A DNA stretch of 40,838 nt from contig JAQGOU010000051.1 in assembly GCA_028293445.1 (NCBI GenBank), positions 1 through 40,838 on the forward strand. Direction: 5' to 3'. Both the position numbers and the translations under genes were made by a program. The DNA comes from Verrucomicrobiales bacterium (lineage in GTDB: Bacteria > Verrucomicrobiota > Verrucomicrobiia > Limisphaerales > JACDHS01). The notes below the pieces were generated by a model. The model had not been told where the DNA came from and made no database searches. It was given only the letters and a program-made list of their open reading frames with translations. Below, piece by piece: positions 395 to 30,563 of the stretch. Positions within the stretch are counted from its first letter, which is position 1, and every line of letters begins with the position of its first letter.

Positions 395-935
395 TTGGCT
401 GGGAAATTTGGCCCCTTTTCCGTCTGCCCCTCACGGGCGCTTCCCGAAATTGGGCTGCGAAAAAATTCAGCCCATTTTGCTTCCCCAGAAAAGTTCTACA
501 AATATTTGGAGGTCTTGCCTTCCTCCGGAAAAGTTTCCACAGAAATTTGGGTCCGTCCGGACGCTCGGAAAAACTTTCTACAGATATTTCAAAGAATTTT
601 TGTTCCGCGAAAAACTTTTTTCGCGAAAATAATTTTCCCAAGGCCCGGAAAACTCTTCCACACATATTTCTCGGAATTCTGGTTCTGGGAAAAGTCTCCC
701 ACATATATTTCACGGAGTTTTGGTTCCGGGAAAAGGTCGCCGCACGTGTAGAAAAGTTTTCCAGCTCTCCGGAGACGTGAAATATATGAAATTTCTTTTT
801 CCAGCTCTCGGAAAAACTTTATTTACGTAAATAAATTTTTTCTGGGCGTCCCAAAGTCAGTTCTGACAAGAACTTAGACATTTTAGCCTTTTCCGGCGGG
901 TGAAAAATGCGTCAGGGGAAAAAAAGGCGAAAAAC
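395..935. repeat. Dispersed repeat block, copy 1, internal period about 41 bp
   Basis: This intergenic block recurs at 25114-25658 in the same orientation. One hand-aligned 80-bp stretch (481-560) matches 73 of 80 bases, and most differences are transitions. Inside, a GAAAA-led unit starts near 403, 446, 488, 528, 568, 609, 648, 689, 730, 772 and 811, so the period is 39-43 bp. Many units contain a short inverted repeat, such as GGAAAAGTTTCC near 527 and TTTTTTCGCGAAAA near 615. The last full unit (811-842) is a 32-bp near-perfect palindrome centred on TTTACGTAAA and ending in a T run. The period is not a multiple of three, so the open frames across the block are not good evidence of coding. 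Possible roles are transcription termination, protein binding or a structured RNA. Confidence 0.85.
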
Positions 936-2925: not shown

Positions 2926-5900
2926 TTACGCAATCTTTGCGTTGCTCGTTTTATCCGTACGACGGGTGGTGACTGCGACAAATCCCCACAGCGCCAGAAA
3001 CCCAACAAAGCAACCGCCCAGACGCAACGGCCAGTTGGTCGTCTTCAAATTAAGGGCCGAAAACTCGACGGTCATCGGCTTGTTCACTTCCGTCTGCAGC
3101 ACCTGGGTGAACGAGCGTTGCACACCTCGCGTCGGCAGGTTGATATGCAGCGGCTGAAGTTTCGGTGTGGCAATTTCCTGCGCATCCTGCACCCGCACAC
3201 ATTGTAATTGCGCCACCTCGGCATCGTACTGAATGCCAAGATTGAGCTTCTCCTTTTCCATACTGGAAAGCGAATTCGCCAAGCTACCGTTGTTCACGAA
3301 GTCATTCTGCGCGGCGATCAGGTTGCTGCCCTGCGCCCGACGCAAATCGCGTTCGAGATCTTTCAATTCTTTGTCCTCGAAGTTGCCTCCCGCGACTTTG
3401 GCTTGAGCCTTCTTAAAGTCGCCCGCAGCCTCGTGATAATTCCCTTCGGCTAATTTGCGTTTCACATTTTGTACGTCGTTCTTCGCATCGGCCCGCAAGT
3501 TCGACCGCGCTTGTTTCTCCTGTTTGACATATTCAAACGATGAAAAACTGGCGACCTCGGCGATGACCACAGAACCTTCGCGCGTCATCGTTCCTTTGAA
3601 GTTGTCGTACTCATAATCAGGCGGCAGGAACAGATCCCAACGCGCGTTCTTCAACGGGGTGTCCAGCTTCGGCGACACCAGCGCAATTGAACCGCGCGTT
3701 TTTGGAAACGGGTTGGTGTTCACATAATTCAACACCACGGAAATGGCTGCGTCGGTGCCGGCGGATTGTTCAATTGGAATAAGAAGCTTGCTGGCACGCA
3801 TGCTCGGACGCACCGGTTGTCCGGCCACAAAAGCTGACCAGATCTTCGCACCGGCGGGTAATTCAACCTCCAGATATTGACGTCCATTATTCCGCACTGC
3901 GAGCGACATCTCCGTCATCGTTTGTCCATCGTCGGCAACGACGGTGCTCAGCTTGGCGCTCTCGACGAGCGCCTGCAAAACTTCAGCTTCCTCGAAGCGT
4001 TTGGCTTCCAACACGAGTTTGTAGCCCGGTCGCAGGTAGCGATAAACCAGCGCAGCAGTCTCGGTCGATTGCGCCCAGTCCGGCAACTCGTGACGATCCA
4101 TTTTCACCACGTCGGTGCTGGCATGTTCGGTGACCTGCTGAGGAGCTGTCGCCACGACGCTGATGAAACCGCTCTCACGCTCCACCCCTGCTGCATTCAC
4201 GGCAGCCACTTCGAACAAATTGGTTTTATTCCCGCGCGGCACTTCCCAGGTCACGGTCAATTCGTGCGTGCCGGACACTTTATTCTGCAACTCAATCTTC
4301 CAGAGTTCACCCACCTGATCTCGACGCCGGATATTCGCGCCCGTGATTTCCACGTTCTTCAGTGAAGCCGGAATTTTCAACTGCAACTCTTTGACCGGCG
4401 CGTTCTGAATATCGTAACGAACCAGCGCGCGCCCGCTCACGAGCACTTCGTTCATGGTAAGCGTGTTCATCACCTGCGCCCGAATCCACGGTTCGATTTT
4501 CTCCGTGGTGAGAGACAGCTTCCACGTCGAGTCGTTCTCAACGGAAACCAATTTGTAGGCAAGGACAGCACCACTGCGGTTCATATTCGCGGGAAGCGCT
4601 GTGGCAGGAATCTCAACCATCTTCTCAAAGCCAGCGGTCTTCAAAGAAATCCCTGCTTCAGAAGAAACCTCGACGAAGCCTGAAAGCTTCTCGGTGCCGA
4701 TTGGTTGCACGCCACTGAGCGAAATGGCTGCTCCTAAATCTTTGTAGGTCTGCACCAATTCCAGATGCAGCGCATAGGTGCCCATTTTCCGTTCTTTGAA
4801 AGTGATTTCCAAAATCCGTTTACCCTCTTCGGTCCGCTCAATGTGTTGCAACACGTCGTTACCTAAAACTTGCTGCACGCGATATCCCTCCGGCAACGCG
4901 ACGCGCAAGCCAAACACGCCGGCGCGTTTGATCGTATAATCGATGTAAGCAGCGAGATAAGTATCGTGTGTGGCAACGCGAAATGAATTGCGCGCGACCG
5001 CTTCCACCTTGGCCTGCACCATCTCGGCACGAATGCGTAGATCGAAATCAGTTTTGAAAAAGCGAAAGACGCTGAAGAGGTTTTCACTCTTCTGCGACGT
5101 CATCCGCGTGAATTCTTCCGCATCGACACGTTGTATCTCCTGAACTCCTTCCACAGAAAGACTCAACTCATCGGTGTTCCGCAACGCCAGCAGACCGGTC
5201 TCCCGTTTCACGTCCAGCGCATGTGGAACTTCGATTTTTGCGGTCGAGGGCGGGGTATCCAAAACTTTTTCGGTTTCAACGACCAGCTTGTAACCGGGCG
5301 AAACTCCCTTTGCTAATTCCACGGTCAAAATCGGCTCACCTTCTTTGGCCATTTCCCAGGTCCGGATATTTTCTCCTTCGACCCGCAGCAAACGTTGCCC
5401 CACCGCGAGGCGAATTTTCATCTGCCGCAACTCTCCCTGCGTCACTTGATAATCGAACGTCGTGCGGGTATTCACAACGCCGCCGCCGATCGTCACTACG
5501 TTCGCGTTTTGACAGAACACCGTGGCCGCAATATCGGCGGCGCGCTTCACTTTTGGCGTCCAGCGCAGTTCCACCTTTTCGTTCGCACCGAGCAACGCCT
5601 CGACTCGTGTCTGCTGCAGTTGATTGGTTTTCTTAAACGAGATTGCCGAGGGAAATTCCACGTCAGCATCCAATTGATCAATATTTACGGTCAACTGGCT
5701 CGCCAACGAGGGCGGCACGCCAAAGATCAATTCTCGTTTGGTAATGTCACCGCTGAGTTTCACGAGTAAACGCAATTGCAACGTCGTCTCGCCACGCTTG
5801 GCGACGACGGCCGAGATCGTTTTTCCATCGCGCACCAGGCGGACCTCGCCCGGTTTGGCTGCAAATTTTTCCACTACGACTTCCTCACCGAACAAAAGAA

Positions 5901-8900
5901 TCTTTTGTTCTGATGCTTTAGCCGAGATCTGCAAGGTCGCGTCGACTTGAGCAACACGATCGTTCACTTGCGCAATGTAGTTTGCAGAGAGGATTGAATA
6001 GGTGCCAACAGCGACAGGTTTGGTTTCCGCGACAACCGGTGAGACAGCATTCGCGTTCGCAACAAAGAAGGTCAAAGCGAGCAGCGCCACGATCGGCCCT
6101 GCGGAGGAATCAATGGTGGGCGGCACCATCAGGGGCACTTTGCGCGGCCAATATTTCCAGGCGAGATAAGCAATGCCGCTCAACAACAACGCCGGAACGA
6201 GAATGATCAATCCGATGTGCAGCAGACGCCAGGCGATCAGCAGACTTCCCACTGAACCGAACGCCAACACCAGGGCAATCGTGATGAGCAGGCTGCTCCG
6301 GCGTCCACGACGCCATTGCCTCCAGAACAGCAAAAGACCCGCCACGAAGGCGCACAGTTGCACCACCATCTGTGCCATTTGATAAACGCTCAGGCGCATG
6401 ATCTCGGTTTTAATTGCGAGTGGCTCGTCCAACACGTTCAGCACCTTCGTGAAGGTGAACGCACGACCTGCGCGAGGAATATCAATCCGAATGGAGCGGA
6501 TGCCCGCGGCCATCGGTTGGGGTGCGGCCACGGTCGGTGTCGGAGAGCTCATTGGAGCGGCCATGCTCCCCACCGTCGACCACCCATAGCTCGCATTTGT
6601 GGCGGTCGTAGTGAAGGTAGCCATTCCGCCACCGCTAACTAATCCATTTACCGACCGATTTGCTGTTTTGATACCGTCCATTGCCATATCCCCTGTTGCT
6701 GTGGCTGTTTGCTGCGGAACCTTCGCTGGCTCAGCGTAGAAACTGGACTGCTGACGCTCCACGGCCAGGCTTTGCTTTTGCGCCGCCATTTCCGATTGCG
6801 TGGCCAACAATGTGAAACCGCGATGGGACAAATCCGCGAATGTTTCACTGCTCACTTGCGACACACTGCCATCGGCATACAAGACGTTGCGCCCATGCCC
6901 GGAATCGGTGGGCGAATAGGCCACGACCGATTCGGGTTTCAATTGATCCAGCGATGCTGCCCCGCCCACGTAAACAAACCGCTGACCACTCTCGGGATCA
7001 ATCACGATCTTCTCGCTGCTGAGCTGTTCCGACATTTCCTCGAAGGATGCGGGCAGTTTATCCCCATTATCATTGGCGAACATGCGCATGCCGGTCCCAA
7101 TTTGTTTTAAGCTGCTGACGGAGTTGATCCGCTGGGCACGCGATTTCGCTTTCGATAACGCCGGCAAAAGCATTCCTGCCAGGGTGATGACAATCGCGAA
7201 AAGCCCAAGGACCGCAACCACGCCACTCCACCCGCGTCGAATGGCCGAACCAATTAACGCAATGAGAAGAACTGCGAATCCACCCACGACGACAATGGCA
7301 ATTCCCATTTCACGCAGGATGTGATGATAGAAATCCACAAACTCCTGCCAGGCATCGCGCAGATCGTATGTGGTGCCGCGCGCGACCGTCATGTTGCCGC
7401 CAAAGCCCGACAGCCGATAAGCATTCGGCGCGTAAAATTCCCATTCGGCGTACGTATTCGGCACATCGGTTTTTGGAGCGGTCAGGTGGATCGCCTGCGG
7501 CATCAGTGATTTCAGAAGCGGCTTCTGTTCTGCGTAAACAATATCCACGGCGAACGCTTCATCGCGGTTTTCGCCTCGCGGCAGAGAAACCAATAACCAT
7601 TCACCATCGCGCTCCGGTTTGGCCGACTGCCCATTGACGTAGCAGCTCCAGAAGGTCGCCCGGTCTGGCAATTGAAAGCGTTGAAACTGTTTGTCGTTGT
7701 TCTTCACCATGAACGACGCTTGCGTGAGCATCTCGCCGGCTTCGGTGAGGACGGTGGTGAGTTGCGTCCGATCGGTCACGGCGTCAAGAACGGTCACCTG
7801 TTCGAAACGATTCACATCGACCGCAAAGTCGTAATCATTCCCAGTGTAACGATAGGCCAGCAAAACCGACCGCGTAATCAACGCATGATCCGAAGCGTTC
7901 AATTCCGATTCGTCAATTCGACGCAACGGATCAGCGGCGGTTTTAACATTCAATTTCAAACTCGCCGCGCTGGTGACGGCGACGGAACCGTTCTCCCGTT
8001 CCACGTCCAAAGCATGAATTCCACCCAGGTGCAGGATGGCGTTCTTCGGATCAAACTGAATATCATAGGTCACGACCAGCGTGTAACCGCCCCAGACTTT
8101 GTCCTGCAAGCCGATGGTCCAGACGACGGAGTTTGTGTTCACCACCGACTCTTTGCGGCGGATGCTCGGCCCGGTGAACTCAACATTTTTCCATGACGAG
8201 GGAACTTTGACTTTGAATTCCTGCACGCCCTGATTCACGAGCCCATAACGAATGGTGGCGCTACCGCCGAGCAACCCATCACCGACCGTGACCAGATTGA
8301 AAATTTCTGCCACGACGCGAGCCGACAGTTTTTCCGCAGCCAAAGATAATTTCCAATCCGCCGCGTCCGCCGTGTAGGCAAGAGATTCATCCGTTTGACT
8401 GCCGATCGTATTGATCGGGACTTCGCGAACATTCCCGACCTCGATGGTCTTTGCCCGCACCCCGGCAATGGTGGCGACGCCGATATGTGCCGTCTCTTTT
8501 GTCGCTCCGGTCAGCCTTAACGGCATCACGACAATCTGTTCCGGAAACGTCTTGAACGGCTGCTCCAGTTGCACCGTGATTAGTCGTGCCCCCAGAACCC
8601 GCGCCGTAAAATTCAACCGCAACTTGCCGCCGCTCACCTGCCAGTCCTCCAACCCTTCACTCCGCACATCGGCAACCACCAATCCAGCCTGTGGCGTGAG
8701 TTCCAGAGTGTAGACGCCAGCTTTTTCCACCATCAGCACCAGCGTATGCGACACCAGCAACCGTGTTTCCTCCACACGGGTCGCAACGCGATCGGCGACG
8801 CTGATGACCGGTTCAATGCGTTTCAGTTTCAGTGCGATCGAAAAGGGCCGCGCATTAAATCGATAGGCCGCGAGCGAACCGTTTGCTGCATTCACCTGCC

Positions 8901-9852
8901 GCAATCCCACGGCCGATTCGATTTCCACCTGCGTATCTTCGGCATTGATCGTAAGCGCTCCCGATTCTCTCTCGACATTCAGGGGCTGAGGCAATGAAAG
9001 CGCCAATGATGACGGTGTCGATTCCACCGTTTGTTCCGACACGAGCGTGAGCTGATACGACTTTTCAATCGGGCGGATGTATTCGATTTCCAAAGTCTGT
9101 TTTCCTTCTTCGGTTTTCACCTGCCAATCCCGAACCTGTTCGCCAATCAAACGTGTCAAGGCGTGTCCTTGCGGTAACACGATGCTCAACCTCGGAAGCT
9201 TCCCTTGCACAATGTCGAACTGGAATTGCGTGTTGAACTTAACCGCGGTCGGCGTGACCTGCGCGGTCGCGGTCGTCTCCGTCGTCACCAACACTTTGCG
9301 GGTGACTTCCACTTTCTTGTTTTGCCAGCGGAACGACACCGTGCGATCAGCGCCCAGAAAACCTTTCACCTCCGAGACCCCATTGGTTTGAGTCGACGCG
9401 ACCACCGTCCCGCTCAACAACTGCAACTCGAGTCCAGAACCATTCGCTTGCGCGGTGACGGAGGCAATCGGCGTCGTCGGACCCGCGAAGGAAATCTGAT
9501 TCCAGGTTTCGCTCCGTGAAATTTTAGCGATCACTTCGACCTGGATTGGAAATTTGCCGGGGCGCGAAACTGCGAGCCAATATTCATTGCCGCGCCGTTC
9601 CATTTGCAGGCCATTGGGCAGTTTTGGTGGCAAAACGGCCAACTCTCCTTCGAGAAAGCGGACGCTCGTGGCTGTTTTGCTGGAGGACTCAATGACGGCG
9701 TTCACGATGAAGCGCGCTTCGTCCTCATTAATCTTTCCCTCGTATCGCAGTTCGCGAAACACAGGGCTGTCCTCCTGGACTTTCAACGGTTCTTTGGCAA
9801 AAGCGCCGAGCGTGAGTAAAACGAAGACAGCCGATAACAATTTGAGGGGCAT
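2926..9852 (-). CDS. Giant two-lobed secreted/membrane protein with embedded pseudopilin-like segment
   Basis: This 2308-residue protein is of unknown function. The ATG at 9850-9852 was chosen because it gives a typical signal peptide (MPLKLLSAVFVLLTLGAFA); the upstream in-frame start would add 57 non-conserved residues before it. The ectodomain occupies roughly residues 20-845 and is beta-rich. Two membrane helices follow (about 849-870 and 876-898). The second runs into a pseudopilin-like segment (AGMLLPALSKAKSRAQRI, M894), which ends with an HGRNVLYADG motif near residue 994. A Gln/Gly/Ser-rich linker and three or more membrane helices come next. Near residue 1250-1269 a second signal-like stretch ends in ANA. 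After it a second ectodomain clearly repeats the first: PSSWKNVEFTGPSIRRK against PASLKNVEITGANIRRR. A charged helical insert and a C-terminal membrane helix close the protein. Likely a cell-envelope protein. Confidence 0.85.
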   Translation of the reverse strand: MPLKLLSAVFVLLTLGAFAKEPLKVQEDSPVFRELRYEGKINEDEARFIVNAVIESSSKTATSVRFLEGELAVLPPKLPNGLQMERRGNEYWLAVSRPGKFPIQVEVIAKISRSETWNQISFAGPTTPIASVTAQANGSGLELQLLSGTVVASTQTNGVSEVKGFLGADRTVSFRWQNKKVEVTRKVLVTTETTATAQVTPTAVKFNTQFQFDIVQGKLPRLSIVLPQGHALTRLIGEQVRDWQVKTEEGKQTLEIEYIRPIEKSYQLTLVSEQTVESTPSSLALSLPQPLNVERESGALTINAEDTQVEIESAVGLRQVNAANGSLAAYRFNARPFSIALKLKRIEPVISVADRVATRVEETRLLVSHTLVLMVEKAGVYTLELTPQAGLVVADVRSEGLEDWQVSGGKLRLNFTARVLGARLITVQLEQPFKTFPEQIVVMPLRLTGATKETAHIGVATIAGVRAKTIEVGNVREVPINTIGSQTDESLAYTADAADWKLSLAAEKLSARVVAEIFNLVTVGDGLLGGSATIRYGLVNQGVQEFKVKVPSSWKNVEFTGPSIRRKESVVNTNSVVWTIGLQDKVWGGYTLVVTYDIQFDPKNAILHLGGIHALDVERENGSVAVTSAASLKLNVKTAADPLRRIDESELNASDHALITRSVLLAYRYTGNDYDFAVDVNRFEQVTVLDAVTDRTQLTTVLTEAGEMLTQASFMVKNNDKQFQRFQLPDRATFWSCYVNGQSAKPERDGEWLLVSLPRGENRDEAFAVDIVYAEQKPLLKSLMPQAIHLTAPKTDVPNTYAEWEFYAPNAYRLSGFGGNMTVARGTTYDLRDAWQEFVDFYHHILREMGIAIVVVGGFAVLLIALIGSAIRRGWSGVVAVLGLFAIVITLAGMLLPALSKAKSRAQRINSVSSLKQIGTGMRMFANDNGDKLPASFEEMSEQLSSEKIVIDPESGQRFVYVGGAASLDQLKPESVVAYSPTDSGHGRNVLYADGSVSQVSSETFADLSHRGFTLLATQSEMAAQKQSLAVERQQSSFYAEPAKVPQQTATATGDMAMDGIKTANRSVNGLVSGGGMATFTTTATNASYGWSTVGSMAAPMSSPTPTVAAPQPMAAGIRSIRIDIPRAGRAFTFTKVLNVLDEPLAIKTEIMRLSVYQMAQMVVQLCAFVAGLLLFWRQWRRGRRSSLLITIALVLAFGSVGSLLIAWRLLHIGLIILVPALLLSGIAYLAWKYWPRKVPLMVPPTIDSSAGPIVALLALTFFVANANAVSPVVAETKPVAVGTYSILSANYIAQVNDRVAQVDATLQISAKASEQKILLFGEEVVVEKFAAKPGEVRLVRDGKTISAVVAKRGETTLQLRLLVKLSGDITKRELIFGVPPSLASQLTVNIDQLDADVEFPSAISFKKTNQLQQTRVEALLGANEKVELRWTPKVKRAADIAATVFCQNANVVTIGGGVVNTRTTFDYQVTQGELRQMKIRLAVGQRLLRVEGENIRTWEMAKEGEPILTVELAKGVSPGYKLVVETEKVLDTPPSTAKIEVPHALDVKRETGLLALRNTDELSLSVEGVQEIQRVDAEEFTRMTSQKSENLFSVFRFFKTDFDLRIRAEMVQAKVEAVARNSFRVATHDTYLAAYIDYTIKRAGVFGLRVALPEGYRVQQVLGNDVLQHIERTEEGKRILEITFKERKMGTYALHLELVQTYKDLGAAISLSGVQPIGTEKLSGFVEVSSEAGISLKTAGFEKMVEIPATALPANMNRSGAVLAYKLVSVENDSTWKLSLTTEKIEPWIRAQVMNTLTMNEVLVSGRALVRYDIQNAPVKELQLKIPASLKNVEITGANIRRRDQVGELWKIELQNKVSGTHELTVTWEVPRGNKTNLFEVAAVNAAGVERESGFISVVATAPQQVTEHASTDVVKMDRHELPDWAQSTETAALVYRYLRPGYKLVLEAKRFEEAEVLQALVESAKLSTVVADDGQTMTEMSLAVRNNGRQYLEVELPAGAKIWSAFVAGQPVRPSMRASKLLIPIEQSAGTDAAISVVLNYVNTNPFPKTRGSIALVSPKLDTPLKNARWDLFLPPDYEYDNFKGTMTREGSVVIAEVASFSSFEYVKQEKQARSNLRADAKNDVQNVKRKLAEGNYHEAAGDFKKAQAKVAGGNFEDKELKDLERDLRRAQGSNLIAAQNDFVNNGSLANSLSSMEKEKLNLGIQYDAEVAQLQCVRVQDAQEIATPKLQPLHINLPTRGVQRSFTQVLQTEVNKPMTVEFSALNLKTTNWPLRLGGCFVGFLALWGFVAVTTRRTDKTSNAKIA

Positions 9853-10130
9853 AGATTTTCTTGGTTGTTTGAAGACCGAAGTGGTCACAGCAAAACAGTG
9901 GTGCATAAGACATGCCGTAGGTCGCCGGATGGAAAACAGGGGCATTTCGCGGAAAAGCCGCGGGATACCTGCGTGGACACCGCGCAGACCGCGTGAGAAT
10001 CTTCCATCAATAAAATGCGACACTCAGGGTCAGACGGGATCCCTTAAAAAATACTCCGGCCTTTTCTCATGGGAATAGCCTGTTGCAGTCCGAGGCCTTT
10101 TTGTTACGTTCATAAAAAGTTTCAATCCGC

Positions 10131-12461: not shown

Positions 12462-12712
12462 GCCTCCCCAAAAGAGTCTAAAATCCCGTTCTCACGTGAG
12501 AATACGTTTTTAGGGCGCCCAAAACTTCATTCTCACGTGAGAATGTCTTTCCGGGCGGTCCAAAAGTACGTTTTCACGTGAGAACGTGTTTTCGGGGAGT
12601 CCAAAAGTTTAATCTCACGTGAGAATGTGTTTTTGGGGAGTCTAAAAGTTCATTCTTACGTGAGAATGTCTTTTCAGAGAGTCCGAAAGAGCGTTTTCCT
12701 GTGGGAAAACGG
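12462..12712. repeat. 41-bp hairpin array, six units, in the nuoA upstream region
   Basis: The palindrome core TTCTCACGTGAGAA or a variant recurs with core starts at 12492, 12533, 12574, 12615, 12656 and 12697, exactly 41 bp apart each time. Between cores lies a conserved spacer of the form GTNTTTTNGGGGAGTCCAAAAG. Variation inside the stems keeps pairing possible: units 3 and 5 carry changes that would be G-U pairs in RNA, and unit 6 (CGTTTTCCTGTGGGAAAACG) has changed both arms together. The flanking parts of the 651-bp divergent region (12302-12461 and 12713-12952) hold one short hairpin (12371-12401) and no promoter I can support. The array may bind a protein at helically phased sites or form serial RNA hairpins in the nuo leader. 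Confidence 0.88.
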
Positions 12713-23604: not shown

Positions 23605-25082
23605 ACTTCGACTACGCCCAACTGTTCAGTGCCGCAATTCCAGAAACAGTCGTCGTCATCACCGCGTTCCTGGCCTTGCTCGTGGATTTTATTTTCCTGC
23701 GCAACCTTCCCGCGAGAACACGAACGTCTCTCCTCGCCACTGTTACCGCTGTCGGTTGCCTCTCCGCGATCGCCTGGATGGGTGTGAGCCATTCCACCTA
23801 TCGATTGGACGACGCGATCTTCGTGGTGAATCCGATGACGCAACTCGTGAAGCAAATCATTCTCGCGCTCACCATTTTCACGGCGTTCATTTCCGTGCAA
23901 ACCAACTTCACGCGGCACCTCGGCGAATATTTTATTCTCCTGCTGCTCGCGAGCGCAGGAATGATGTTCCTTGTCAGTGCGGAAAATATTCTCGCCATCT
24001 TCCTCGCCCTGGAATTGCTCAGTTTATCCCTCTACGTTCTCACCGCATTCAACAAGCAAAGCGTCTTCTCGGCGGAAGCGGCTTTGAAATACTTTCTCTT
24101 CGGCGGGATGTCGGCAGCCTTTACGTTATTCGGCCTCAGCTTGATTTACGGTGTGACCGGTGAGATGAACCTCACCGCCATTGCCGCCAAGCTTGCCGGC
24201 AAAACAACCGATCCACTCTTCTACGTCGCGCTGGTGATGACCGTCATCGGTTTCGGATTCAAGGTCGCTGCGGCTCCATTTCACATGTGGGCGCCCGACG
24301 CCTATCAAGGTTCTCCCACGCCCGTCACCTCATTCATCGCGGCGGGTTCAAAGGTTGCCAGCTTTTTCATACTCGCGAAGATTTTGTTCACCGGATTCGC
24401 GGGCGCAGAAGGCGACGCCGGTTGGCATCATTACATTTCCGGTTGGACGCCTGTCCTCGCGATCCTGGCGGCCCTTTCGGTAATCATCGGAAACCTCGCC
24501 GCAATTTCGCAAAAGAGTGTGAAACGCTTGCTGGCCTATTCCGCCATTGCGCACGGTGGCTACGCGCTGCTCGGCATTTTAACCGCCGACCAGAAAGGCT
24601 TCGCCTCGTTAATCTATTATGTGACCACCTACGCTCTGACCGTCATCGGTGCCTTTGGTGTCGTGGCTGTGGTGGAGAATTACGGCGGCGACAAGTTGTC
24701 GGACTTCGCTGGCTTGAGTCGGCGCGCCCCGATTCTTTCAGCGTGCATGATGGTGTTCATGTTGTCTCTGGCGGGCATCCCACCGCTGGCGGGTTTCTTC
24801 GGAAAGTTCTACGTGTTCACGTCGGCAATTCAACTGGGCGCTAAAAGCCTCGGACTCCTTTGGCTGGTGATCCTCGCCATCGCGATGAGTGCGGTTTCGC
24901 TTTATTATTATCTGCAGGTGCTCAAACAGATTTACGTGGTGGATGCTTCGGACAAAACCACGGTCTCCGTCGCCCTCCCCACGCAATTCGTGATCGTCGC
25001 CTTGGCGATTGCGGTCGTGGTTCTCGGTTGTGTTCCCAATCTCCTCGTTGGAAAGATTCTCGCGGCGCTCAGTTTGGGTTAG
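23601..25082 (+). CDS. nuoN: NADH-quinone oxidoreductase subunit N
   Basis: This 493-residue antiporter-like subunit is proximal to NuoK. Channel residues are Glu138 (FLALELLSLSLYVLTAF), the lysine in GFGFKVAAAPFHMWAPDAY and the lysine in AAGSKVASFF. The ATG at 23601 is chosen because AAAGGAGG stands just upstream and it overlaps the nuoM stop in ATGA. The longer open frame from 23316 lies inside nuoM and has no family similarity. This is the last gene of the operon. No classical terminator is seen at once, but the hairpin-rich repeat block begins about 30 bp downstream. Confidence 0.96.
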   Translation: MNFDYAQLFSAAIPETVVVITAFLALLVDFIFLRNLPARTRTSLLATVTAVGCLSAIAWMGVSHSTYRLDDAIFVVNPMTQLVKQIILALTIFTAFISVQTNFTRHLGEYFILLLLASAGMMFLVSAENILAIFLALELLSLSLYVLTAFNKQSVFSAEAALKYFLFGGMSAAFTLFGLSLIYGVTGEMNLTAIAAKLAGKTTDPLFYVALVMTVIGFGFKVAAAPFHMWAPDAYQGSPTPVTSFIAAGSKVASFFILAKILFTGFAGAEGDAGWHHYISGWTPVLAILAALSVIIGNLAAISQKSVKRLLAYSAIAHGGYALLGILTADQKGFASLIYYVTTYALTVIGAFGVVAVVENYGGDKLSDFAGLSRRAPILSACMMVFMLSLAGIPPLAGFFGKFYVFTSAIQLGAKSLGLLWLVILAIAMSAVSLYYYLQVLKQIYVVDASDKTTVSVALPTQFVIVALAIAVVVLGCVPNLLVGKILAALSLG

Positions 25083-25113: not shown

Positions 25114-25658
25114 TTGGCTACTCCCCAAAAGTTGCCATTTTTTGTCCTACCAGCCGCCGGACTTCCTCGGTTGGGAGTTTCCATAAAAACAATCCCATTT
25201 TGCTTCCCCGGAAAAGTTTTACAAATATTTGGAGGTTTCGCCCTCCTCCGAAAAAGTTTCCACAGAAATTTGGCTCCGTCCGGACGCTCGGAAAAACTTT
25301 CTACAGATATTTCAAAGAATTTTGGTTCTGGGAAAAACTTTTTTCGCGAAAATAGTTTTCCCGAGGCCCGGAAAACTCTCCTGCATATATTTCACGGAAT
25401 CCCGGTTCTGGGAAAAGTCTCCCACATATATTTCACGGCATTTTGGCTCCGGGAAAAGGTCGCTGCACGTGAAGAAAAGTTTTCCAGCTCTCCGGAGACG
25501 TGAAATATATGAAATTTCTTTTTCCAGCTCCCGGAAAAATTGTATTTACGTAAATAAATTTTTTCTGAGCGTCCTAAAGGCGCTTCTGACAACAACTTAG
25601 GCATTTTTGTCATTTTCGGCGGATGAAGAATCTACCGGGGAGGAAAAAGACGAAAAAC
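25114..25658. repeat. Dispersed repeat block, copy 2, internal period about 41 bp
   Basis: This is the second copy of the block at 395-935, same orientation, lying between nuoN (+) and a convergent ABC permease gene (-). GAAAA-led units begin at about 25211, 25251, 25291, 25332, 25371, 25412, 25453, 25495 and 25534. The step sizes (40, 40, 41, 39, 41, 41, 42, 39) match copy 1 unit for unit, so the whole block was copied, not just a unit. The terminal palindrome (25534-25565) is kept with 14 of 16 arm positions paired and ends in a T run. Similarity continues through GGCGAAAAAC-like sequence to about 25658. The remaining 105 bp before the permease stop show nothing I can name. Confidence 0.85.
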
Positions 25659-25763: not shown

Positions 25764-27407
25764 TCATTCCATCGATGGCCATCGGACTTTATTTAAGGAG
25801 AGGCGAATGATCACGTAGGTGACACTGACCAGAAACGTCTCGATCAATAAGAAAGTCCCCAGGTAATGCGCCGCGTTTGCCGCGATCGCCAATCCGGAGA
25901 TCACGACCGGCATGATCATGTATCCAATCATGCGCAAACCGCGCCCAGCGGCTTTTCCTTCTTCGGTCGGCAACGACAACGGCACGGCGTGGCCACCAAT
26001 CCCAGGGACTAACGCGTAGACCGGCAGCGCAAGCAGGCCCGGTAGAAGCAGCAACAACTGCGAGGTCTGCGGATCCATCAGCCAGACGATCAGGACCAGG
26101 AGAAGGAGCAGGGGTAACGTTAAGAAGCAGAGAACGGCGCGGCGCGCTCCGTGGAAGAGAGGAGTCGGTCCGATCATCGGTGCCGCCCGGAAAATATCCG
26201 CCGCCTGCCATTGCTGGGAATATTGGAGAAGATTTAATCCCATCAAAGGGATGAGACCGAGGTAACCACCGGCGAAGGCGACACCAAAATCATTGCCGCC
26301 ATGTCGTCCGTTTTGTTGCATCAAGAAAATGATCGGCATCACCAGCACCGGTGCGAGTCCTGGATACACCCGCAGTTTCACATCGCGATCGCGGACGAGA
26401 TAGGCGGCGGTCAGCAGAAAGGCGGCGCGGGATATCGAATCTCGCAACCACCAACGCAAGGGTGGAACATTAACGAGGATATCGATCCAACGGCGGCCGA
26501 CCCGCTTGGCTGGACGATTCGAGACGGTCTCATTCAAATTTTGTAATCCCGCCCCGTAATCCTCGGCGAGCTTTCCGAACGCCAACCACAGGACGATTGT
26601 CGTGGCGATGATTCCGCACGCCGCCAACACCCAGGAACCTCCTGAGCCGCGTCCTGACAAGGCGTCGTCAAACCCGGCAAACCAGGCTGGCGGCAGAAGG
26701 CTGATCCACCAGGAATGAACTTGAAGGTGAAGGTTCGTTCCGAACTTACCCAGAAGACGCGGCACGATTTGTCCGCCGGCCACTGCCGCGATGGAGATTA
26801 ACATCTGTGCCGCTGTCATCAGGCCATCCAGTCGTTCGCGCCCAAACCAGCGTAAACAGAGCTGATAAATCAGAACCACGGAACCGGTGCAAAAGAGCGC
26901 CTGCATCACCGTCGAGATCGCGTGGACAATCGGAAAACTCCACCCCGAATCGGGCGCCGCAACACCAATGAAGAAGCCCGTGAGATTGAAAGCACCGGCA
27001 AGCCAAAGCGAAACCTCCACCAGCACGCGGATCTTCGCCCACAACAATGCTTTGGCCGTGATCGGGCGATGCAATAAAATGTCAGCCTCTTCTTTATTAA
27101 AAAGAACTTCACCTGCGGAACTCGCCACAAACATCCCAAGAAACACGAACGTCATCGCGTGCAGGTAGATCGAGAGTGCGAACACCGGCTGACGCAGGAG
27201 ATAGATCGAGAAAAACCCAAACAGCGCGTAGAACAACAGTGTCATCGCCAGCTTTCGGCCGACTGACTTTGGCGCTTTCTCTTTTTGCAATCCGCGTGAA
27301 CTCCGTCCTCGCAAGAACAGGGTGAGAAAAAGCTGACGCAAACTCTTCTCCGTCGAAGGCGCGAAGGCACGGGGCGGCAGAGGTGGAGTCGGCTCAGGTC
27401 CGTTCAT
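25764..27407 (-). CDS. ABC transporter permease, ABC-2-like
   Basis: This 547-residue integral membrane protein has a cytoplasmic proline- and basic-rich N-terminus (about 50 residues) and about twelve hydrophobic helices. The first helix starts near LAMTLLFYALFGFF. The segment EEADILLHRPITAKALLWAKI, here EEADILLHRP then ITAKALLWAKI, resembles the cytoplasmic loop of ABC-2 exporters that contacts the ATPase. Its start overlaps the ATPase stop by 4 bp (ATGA), so the pair is one translationally coupled export system. Substrate cannot be inferred. The long single chain suggests a fused or large-type permease that works as a dimer or with itself. Confidence 0.85.
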   Translation of the reverse strand: MNGPEPTPPLPPRAFAPSTEKSLRQLFLTLFLRGRSSRGLQKEKAPKSVGRKLAMTLLFYALFGFFSIYLLRQPVFALSIYLHAMTFVFLGMFVASSAGEVLFNKEEADILLHRPITAKALLWAKIRVLVEVSLWLAGAFNLTGFFIGVAAPDSGWSFPIVHAISTVMQALFCTGSVVLIYQLCLRWFGRERLDGLMTAAQMLISIAAVAGGQIVPRLLGKFGTNLHLQVHSWWISLLPPAWFAGFDDALSGRGSGGSWVLAACGIIATTIVLWLAFGKLAEDYGAGLQNLNETVSNRPAKRVGRRWIDILVNVPPLRWWLRDSISRAAFLLTAAYLVRDRDVKLRVYPGLAPVLVMPIIFLMQQNGRHGGNDFGVAFAGGYLGLIPLMGLNLLQYSQQWQAADIFRAAPMIGPTPLFHGARRAVLCFLTLPLLLLLVLIVWLMDPQTSQLLLLLPGLLALPVYALVPGIGGHAVPLSLPTEEGKAAGRGLRMIGYMIMPVVISGLAIAANAAHYLGTFLLIETFLVSVTYVIIRLSLNKVRWPSME

Positions 27408-28743: not shown

Positions 28744-29766
28744 ATGAATTATCCACCGCGCTTGACGTTGGCCAACTTGCCGACGCCGATTCATAAACTG
28801 GAAAGACTGTCGGCTGAGGTCGGCAAAGAGATTTATGTCTGGCGCGATGACATGACCGGCTCGGTTGAATCCGGAAACAAAGTGCGCAAACTGGAATTTC
28901 TTTTAGCGGATGCCATGGCGAAGGGCGCCACGCGCATTATTACTGCGGGCGGATTCCAATCCAACCACACCCGCGCCACCGCTTACTGCGCACGCCGACT
29001 CGGTTTGGAAGTTTCAATCATCGTTCGCGAACCGAAGACCGGGTTCAAGCCGCAGGAAATTCCGACTGGCAATTTATTGCTCAATCAAATCACCGGAGCC
29101 GAGTTGCAATTTGTTCCCTTTGCCGAATATCAGGCTCTGGGCGGATACGGGCCACTCTTGGAACGTGCCGATGAGCAGTGGCGTCAACGCGGCGAAAAGA
29201 CCTACGTCATTGGTGAAGGGGGCAGTCAACCGCTGGGTTGTTTTGGTTACATCTATGGTGTCGAGCAGATGCTTTCGCTGTGGCCGAAGGTTGCCGGTAC
29301 GAAATTTCCCGATTCGTTGTTTTGCGCGGACGGCTCGGGAGGAACGCACGGCGGTTTGCATCTCGGCTATGAATTGAATGGCCTCTCCACGAATGCGATC
29401 TGGGCCGTCAACGTTTGTGACTCCGCGGAGTATTTCCAAAAACGAGTCGGCAAACTCATTGAGGATACCGCGCAACAATTTAATCTACGCTCAATCAACC
29501 GCGAGTTGCAGGTATTGGATGGACACTTTGGCACGGGCTACGGAATTGCCACCGATGAGGATTTACGTTTCTACGCGCGTCTGGCGAAACAAGAAGGCGT
29601 TCTCCTCGATCCGACCTACACCGGCAAAGCTTTCCGCGGCATGCTCGCCGAAATCAAACGCGCGCCGGATCGTTTTGGTAAAAAGATTCTTTTCCTCCAT
29701 TCCGGTGGAACGTTTGGAACGTTTGCCTTGCAGGAGCAATATGCCCGGGCACTGGCGGCCGCTTGA
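28744..29766 (+). CDS. D-cysteine desulfhydrase / ACC deaminase family PLP enzyme
   Basis: This 340-residue fold-type II pyridoxal-phosphate enzyme is related to D-cysteine desulfhydrase (D-cysteine to pyruvate, H2S and ammonia) and to 1-aminocyclopropane-1-carboxylate deaminase. The PLP lysine is Lys46 in VESGNKVRKLEF. The phosphate- and substrate-binding region GGFQSNHTRATAYCA and the glycine-rich EGGSQPLGCFGYI are typical. The final segment FLHSGGTFGTFALQ is a family mark. The sequence does not settle the substrate; D-cysteine is the most frequent one in bacterial members of this length. Confidence 0.88.
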   Translation: MNYPPRLTLANLPTPIHKLERLSAEVGKEIYVWRDDMTGSVESGNKVRKLEFLLADAMAKGATRIITAGGFQSNHTRATAYCARRLGLEVSIIVREPKTGFKPQEIPTGNLLLNQITGAELQFVPFAEYQALGGYGPLLERADEQWRQRGEKTYVIGEGGSQPLGCFGYIYGVEQMLSLWPKVAGTKFPDSLFCADGSGGTHGGLHLGYELNGLSTNAIWAVNVCDSAEYFQKRVGKLIEDTAQQFNLRSINRELQVLDGHFGTGYGIATDEDLRFYARLAKQEGVLLDPTYTGKAFRGMLAEIKRAPDRFGKKILFLHSGGTFGTFALQEQYARALAAA

Positions 29767-29888
29767 AACAAGCCAGCACAGAGAAAGCCGAGTGCGAAGA
29801 TGAACGCTTTTTCATGTTCTTTTCACTCAGCGTTAATCAATTGCCTGCTAACGTTGCCCTCGTTCGTAAATTAAAACTTAGAAAAAAA

Positions 29889-30563
29889 ATGAAGATCACT
29901 AAATTCGTTCGTTTGTTCGCTGTGGCGCTTTTGGCGGGAGCCGTAAGCTTTTCTGCCTCGGCTAAAGATCAAAAAGCCCTCGAAGCTGAAGCAAAGATTT
30001 CAAAAGCTGATGCCGAGAAGATCGCTTTGGAAAAAGTTCCGGGCGGCAAAATTAAAGAAGGCGGATTGGAAGAAGAGAAAGGCAAGCTGATCTGGTCTTT
30101 CGACATTGCGACCAAAGGCAGCAAAAACATCACCGAAATCGCTATTGATGCAAAGACCGGTGAGATCATTGCCGTGGACGTTGAGACTCCAAAGGATGAA
30201 GCCAAGGAAGCGAAGGTTGACGCGCACGAAAAGAAACAAAAGGCGCTCGAGGCTAAAGCAAAGCTTTCGAAGGCTGATGCCGAAAAGATAGCTTTGAAAA
30301 AAGTTCCCGGCGGCAAAATTAGAGAAGGCGAACTGGAAGAAGAAAAGGGCAAGCTGATCTGGTCCTTCGATGTAGCCACCGACGGCAGCAAGAACATCAC
30401 GGAAGTGAACATCGACGCCATCACGGGTAAAGTCATCGCGGTCGACGTTGAGACTCCTAAGGACGAAGCCAAGGAAGCAAAAGCGGACGCCAAGGAAAAG
30501 AAGGCGGCCAAAAAGGGAAAGAAACAGAAAACGGAAAAAACTGAAGGCGACGAGAAGAAATAG
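29889..30563 (+). CDS. Secreted tandem PepSY-domain protein
   Basis: This 224-residue protein starts at the ATG at 29889, which places a signal peptide (ITKFVRLFAVALLAGAVSF, cleavage after SASA) at the front; the open frame from 29763 adds an unrelated leader. The mature protein has two nearly identical PepSY units. Each begins SKADAEKIALxKVPGGKI, continues with EEEKGKLIWSFD, then GSKNITE, and ends VIAVDVETPKDEAKEAK or IIAVDVETPKDEAKEAK. A Lys-rich tail closes the chain. PepSY domains bind peptides or protease propeptides and often modulate sensor kinases. The gene lies upstream of a two-component system on the same strand. The high identity of the units points to a recent internal duplication. 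Confidence 0.88.
   Translation: MKITKFVRLFAVALLAGAVSFSASAKDQKALEAEAKISKADAEKIALEKVPGGKIKEGGLEEEKGKLIWSFDIATKGSKNITEIAIDAKTGEIIAVDVETPKDEAKEAKVDAHEKKQKALEAKAKLSKADAEKIALKKVPGGKIREGELEEEKGKLIWSFDVATDGSKNITEVNIDAITGKVIAVDVETPKDEAKEAKADAKEKKAAKKGKKQKTEKTEGDEKK

Follow-up and report, generated by a model that had tools for sequence, protein, structure and literature searches.

Intergenic arrays with a 41-bp step in a Verrucomicrobiales genome: candidate helically phased platforms for a DNA-binding protein

Near the left end of the stretch of Verrucomicrobiales DNA analysed here (the window, 40,838 bp at its full length) lies an intergenic block that repeats itself internally about every 41 bp and recurs some 24 kb further on, and the question that it raises is what kind of element such a block might be. 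An earlier note on this DNA had described the block and its twin, with matching steps from unit to unit, and had offered a non-autonomous mobile element, a structured RNA or a chromosome-organising site as possible identities. Both the period and the second copy were confirmed. When copy A (window 471-935) is aligned with copy B (25194-25658), the 465 bp in the alignment show 90% identity and no gap, and the strongest autocorrelation of each falls at a lag of 41, with a value of 0.41 in both, as compared with 0.33 for the 99th percentile of shuffled sequence. The matching steps were likewise borne out: GAAAA-type boxes follow one another at 40, 40, 41, 16+23, 41, 41, 21 and 60 bp in copy A and at 39, 41, 41, 16+23, 41, 41, 21 and 60 bp in copy B, so that the two series differ by one base at the start only and have in common both the 16+23 irregularity and the ending of 21 and 60. 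The features of the two copies are as follows.

450-932, + strand: copy A, a periodic array with a non-periodic tail, its strictly 41-bp-periodic portion being 441-778.
487-735, + strand: seven (G/A)GAAAA boxes in phase, near 487, 527, 567, 608, 647, 688 and 729, in steps of 39-41.
594-637, unstranded: inverted repeat in copy A with core TTCGCGAAAA, arms 76% complementary.
811-842, unstranded: palindrome GAAAAACTTTATTTAC/GTAAATAAATTTTTTC toward the right end of copy A, 94% complementary (counterpart in copy B at 25534-25565, 89% complementary).
25194-25658, + strand: copy B, in the convergent gap that separates a nuoN-like gene (ending at 25082) from a gene ending at 25764.

Elsewhere in the window, a dispersed element distinct from the block, with GTCCCGGCTTCAGCCGGC arms in inverted orientation, occupies positions 1022-1163 and shows 84% identity over 143 bp to DNA downstream of another array (L277); the - strand of positions 2926-10023 is open over 2365 aa, a very long frame; and positions 29763-30563 encode a PepSY-domain protein with an internal 267-bp tandem duplication.

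The copy count across its own genome that the earlier note had called for gave five copies rather than two. In this assembly (G000; 6.89 Mb in 659 contigs, 89% complete) the copies lie on four contigs with unrelated flanks, two of them being the window pair (contig C93) and the others being found on C567 (88%), C306 (77%) and C600 (74%). Pairwise identity among the five ranges from 68 to 90%, the 465-bp core aligns without any gap, and a parsimony count across it gives approx. 231 substitutions and 0 indels. The earlier note had also named two outcomes that would refute it, i.e. a single segmental duplication with only two copies and a decayed coding family, and neither holds. The identity of copies A and B to each other is 0.890 and their identities to the C567 copy are 0.897 and 0.890, so the window pair is no closer mutually than to C567 and does not represent a single local duplication. 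As for coding, every frame contains stops and none stays open in all five copies, codon periodicity is absent and substitutions are spread evenly across codon positions, which eliminates a decayed gene family. In addition, no DNA similar to the block was found in plasmid and phage collections, and an origin from either was discarded.

The limits of the element were examined in the five-copy alignment. Identity is at background (~0.40) before ~430, climbs at 434-470 and is again at background after ~930, tapering gradually at both ends without a sharp border at which a target-site duplication could be sought, so that the left border of 395 in the earlier note was ~50 bp too wide and the clear ends hoped for from aligning the copies did not appear. 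The element is therefore ~465-480 bp long with soft edges. Its best terminal inverted-repeat scores were 8 and 7, where shuffles gave a mean of 6.8 and a 95th percentile of 9.0; as the terminal match is not above shuffles, a MITE (miniature inverted-repeat transposable element) with terminal inverted repeats (TIRs) was rejected.

A third array of unrelated sequence, which did not figure in the finding of the earlier note, is the strongest 41-bp array in the window and has approx. eight relatives elsewhere in the genome.

12474-12707, unstranded: third array (array C), of the same class; TTCTCACGTGAGAA-type palindromes, five of them, at steps of 41 bp, with a terminal GTTTTCCTGTGGGAAAAC palindrome in phase with them; located upstream of a nuoA-like gene, where the neighbouring genes diverge.

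A sequence-blind, de novo autocorrelation survey showed how common such arrays are. In a 449 kb sample of G000, made up of the window and consecutive numbered contigs, it returned 30 tandem peaks, 22 of them with a period of 41-42 or multiples of it, and in 133 kb of a second genus of the same family (G001) all seven arrays had periods of 41-43, one of them refining to 43. The survey detected no array of the 41-bp type in other members of the order, of which 321 kb were covered. At a density of about one array per ~20 kb, extrapolation gives roughly 340 arrays in the genome. The pattern AAAAGT-N35-AAAAGT matched 66 times in G000, 35 times in G001 and 0-4 times in 56 other genomes; the reversed-pattern control was likewise elevated in G000, which indicates that the step is not bound to the AAAAGT box alone. 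Among the matches listed, which came from many phyla, 41-bp AAAAGT arrays also occurred in many Bacteroidales and scattered other bacteria (L138-L216, with L181 and L206 from Streptococcus anginosus J4206). These were set aside as proof of the same system, because the search pattern itself picks a 41-bp step; other arrays in the contigs that bear them have scattered periods.

We delineated 61 arrays in the two genomes, with a median of eight units, 26 of which had been found without sequence selection. Each comprises about 4-15 units of 41-43 bp, and neighbouring units are 48-92% identical, in a continuous range. By sequence the 61 arrays fall into 31 groups, 21 of them singletons. Their step is very constant: 333/386 unit steps equal the period of the array and the remainder lie within 3 bp of it, and even in arrays with unit identity below 60% the step is exact in 127 of 166 cases and always within 3 bp. 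Dyad symmetry beyond that of column shuffles (best axis per array) was present in 72% of the 61 arrays, as compared with 9% of 41-mers from the flanks, and in 62% of the 26 unbiased arrays. An arm profile trained on G000, with a T-tract 4-9 bp from the dyad, predicted the arrays of G001 with a score of 9.2 (null -23, S.D. 5.2), and TTTTC-N1-10-GAAAA palindromes occur at 1.9/kb in the unbiased arrays and at 0.15/kb in other intergenic DNA. A step of 41-43 bp with tandem dyads corresponds to integral helical turns at the level of the class, the dyad of the focal block being weak (z 0.1 and 1.5 for its own unit consensus). The phased feature within that block is mainly the half-site GGAAAA, and it is joined to the class mainly by its step, its location and its GGAAAA boxes. 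Plain A-tract curvature was rejected, since the A/T spectrum of the arrays has a 13.7 bp peak as strong as that at 10.25 bp and phased bending alone is thus unsupported.

The evidence of helical phasing comes from lineages of the phylum other than the block's own genome. In these the number of TTTCCA-N5-TGGAAA palindromes reaches 1363 in a single genome, with none for the reversed control; the palindrome is nearly absent from G000 (three sites). With a pair spacing of 18-48 bp permitted and pairs counted by eye in two genomes, all 75 distinct adjacent pairs among the matches listed stood 21-22 or 30-32 bp apart, with unrelated linkers; also among the matches listed, G157 contributed 50 pairs at 31-32 bp and G235 contributed 25 at 21-22 or 30-31 bp. 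Fetched loci gave runs of 22-30-31-31-31-22, 22-30-22-30-22 and 22-31-31-31-31-31-31. As the linkers between the phased palindromes are unrelated, this spacing was not made by tandem duplication. At L253, L254, L255 and L310 (G235, G249 and G213) the arrays often have 22-bp spacings at both ends and 30-31-bp spacings inside, as if capped. Arrays with a 21-bp step, i.e. two helical turns, are present in G017 at L135 (1304-1573, palindromes TGTTCCGGAACA and TGTCGGACGACA) and L294 (~8001-8506). Two, three and four helical turns are all found in one phylum. GC-rich repeats of ~89-99 bp (GCCGCCCGCGTAGGGGCGGCCTACAT...) at L283:15391-16146 (G213) are of a different kind. From the common half-site TTTTC/GAAAA and the common design, we infer that the 41-bp arrays and the TTTCCA-N5-TGGAAA arrays may be one system.

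Whole-turn spacing, dyads, intergenic placement, turnover without indels and the lack of strand preference described below fit the sites of a dimeric protein that lie on one face of the helix. On balance we lean towards the view that the arrays are helically phased DNA platforms for a putative dimeric, probably nucleoid-associated protein and that the block belongs to a class spread through the genome. Each array has about 4-15 units in steps of 41-43 bp, equal to four helical turns; in most arrays the units centre on dyads with T-tract and A-tract half-sites (TTTTC...GAAAA), and the sequence otherwise differs between arrays. The putative dimers would bind the dyads, all on one helix face, and might join, between genes, in a complex of a cooperative or bridging kind. 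Arrays would now and then be copied whole to other intergenic sites, where they would diverge through substitution while changes in spacing were purged. The data suggest that evolution keeps the spacing and the DNA symmetry and not the exact letters. The chromosome-organising site mentioned in the earlier note is compatible with the data and lies near this reading. The complementary arm changes given below also speak for the platform. Points against it are the weak dyad of the focal block, an A/T spectrum that 10.25 bp does not dominate, and the two sites by the nuo operon that G001 does not share, and the phasing seen in other lineages is tied to this genome by a common half-site. A broader proposal, to which we give less than even credence, is that of a code in spacing and not in sequence, in which intergenic arrays, hundreds of them and unrelated in their letters, would share a four-turn step and a dyad profile and be read by a putative nucleoid protein, with related lineages using one fixed palindrome spaced by two or three turns and the step evolving by whole turns.

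The main rival to the platform reading is a selfish or neutral minisatellite element, in which slippage or template switching at imperfect palindromes would give rise to tandem arrays of ~41 bp that then disperse as small non-autonomous elements and decay, with the step mirroring the mechanism and not a function; we hold this to be possible but rather unlikely. Much of the genomic context agrees with it. None of the 61 arrays lies within a gene call (simple in-house gene finder), and where the neighbours are known, 27 arrays stand between codirectional, 12 between divergent and 7 between convergent genes, which resembles large intergenic gaps generally and shows no preference for gene orientation, a comparison that the earlier note had proposed. 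Copies occupy unrelated loci with homology limited to the element, which within families mostly stops within ~100 bp of the array; one family in G001 has homology over ~640 bp and takes in another repeat. The arrays that flank the nuo operon at both ends are absent from the orthologous places in G001, so that conservation between the genera was seen at neither of the two sites checked. The continuous range of unit identity is as birth and decay would give, and BrickBuilt of Porphyromonas gingivalis provides a precedent (PMC4596501). Several observations speak against it, namely the step held by old arrays, the 231 substitutions without an indel in the focal family, the dyad and T/A-tract profile common to both genera in arrays of unrelated sequence, the excess of paired changes on both arms (see below), and the palindromes of other lineages that are phased despite unrelated linkers. 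As regards mobility proper, the mobile element of the earlier note retains its five unrelated loci and its homology confined mostly to ~100 bp or less beyond the array, but shows no terminal inverted repeat above shuffles, no sharp border and no enriched IS200-like/RAYT gene: PF01797 has three matches in G000 and seven in G001, ordinary numbers for the order, and REPs (repetitive extragenic palindromes) driven by RAYT/IS200 were rejected accordingly. The 640-bp repeated unit of G001 (L111, L105 and L102) consists of a 41-42-bp array and a near-perfect inverted repeat of ~46 bp (TATAGTTCTGTTTTGTGAAAACCCTGACTTCTGCC...), which is perhaps a separate MITE.

An improbable explanation, in our estimate, is that these are arrays of DNA hairpins or cruciforms that absorb supercoils or serve as substrates for repair or template switching, the symmetry being kept on the DNA without a dedicated binding protein. 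The dyad symmetry, the lack of strand bias and the covariation of the arms all agree with it. RNA hairpins tolerate G-U on the transcribed strand only, and the broken consensus pairs of the arrays comprise 178 G.T and 178 A.C, with a convincing bias in no single array. Where both arms had changed, the changes were complementary in 162 of 382 cells, as compared with 132 expected for independent sides and 20-28% on a slid axis, the double-change cells not being independent events. The equality of G.T and A.C and the complementary arm changes indicate that the symmetry is held at the level of DNA, partly through paired changes. Quasipalindrome correction would also generate such covariation. However, the covariation is modest, 58% of the double changes being non-complementary, and the integral helical turns and the common T-tract/A-tract profile are left unexplained.

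Structured RNA, proposed in the earlier note, and tandem bidirectional terminators are very improbable and were rejected on strand symmetry plus gene context, since, although the RNA folding of array C greatly surpasses that of shuffles for either strand (z -8.5 and -6.8) and that of the focal block does so moderately (z -2.8 and -4.1), tandem palindromes fold automatically and such scores are not decisive, G.T exactly equals A.C with no per-array strand bias beyond chance, the arrays lie in divergent, convergent and codirectional gaps alike, and no Rfam match was found at the arrays, the focal block included.

If the arrays are bound as the platform reading proposes, this lineage would organize or mark its intergenic DNA by spacing and symmetry, and ordinary motif searches and BLAST would miss systems of this kind; one phylum would then offer a natural series of two, three and four turns in which to test the assembly of a nucleoid protein on one face of DNA. 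If they are selfish instead, they are minisatellite elements with a strangely rigid step, the formation mechanism of which would be worth knowing. We found no description of such an array class in open-access papers, which are only part of the literature, and to our knowledge a set of arrays that spans a genome with a single step but many sequences, and with phasing that shifts by whole turns between lineages, has not been described previously.

The components are of known kinds, i.e. minisatellites, MITEs, REPs and centromere arrays. With 4-15 tandem units of 41-43 bp, the arrays agree with minisatellites in consisting of tandem units of 10-100 bp (minisatellite/VNTR), and the focal family resembles MITEs in having several non-coding copies at unrelated loci, with flank identity at background. 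BrickBuilt is always intergenic and consists of a minisatellite of 23 bp that lies within a MITE, with a single unit consensus, a leader and tail, TIRs and 19 copies (PMC4596501). It is similar in being a tandem minisatellite in an intergenic non-coding element at many sites of one genome, whereas the present arrays combine one step with dozens of unrelated unit sequences, showed no TIR and occur about once per 20 kb. REP/BIME elements with RAYT transposases include GTAG/CGTC-tagged repeats and have been found in the PVC group (PMC3733652). They too are dispersed intergenic palindromes, some in tandem clusters, but within a genome REPs share a single family sequence that has a GTAG or CGTC foot, and here the sequences vary while the step is fixed, the 31 groups among 61 arrays standing in place of one palindromic sequence conserved genome-wide. 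CRISPR loci have a regular period and a palindromic repeat in common with the arrays, in which, by contrast, the unit-by-unit listing revealed neither a constant repeat alternating with unique spacers nor variable blocks of the 25-45 bp expected for spacers. In the sopC centromere of the F plasmid the tandem repeats are 43 bp long, and SopB binds the 16-bp palindrome that each of them contains. sopC is one plasmid locus with near-identical units, whereas the present arrays are chromosomal, unrelated in sequence and estimated at a few hundred. Both are nevertheless direct repeats of about four turns with one dyad each, which in sopC form a nucleoprotein complex, and tandem dyads at integral turns, as in sopC/parS-like sites, are found across the class (41-43 bp here, 21-22 and 30-32 bp in other lineages), if weakly in the dyad of the focal block itself.
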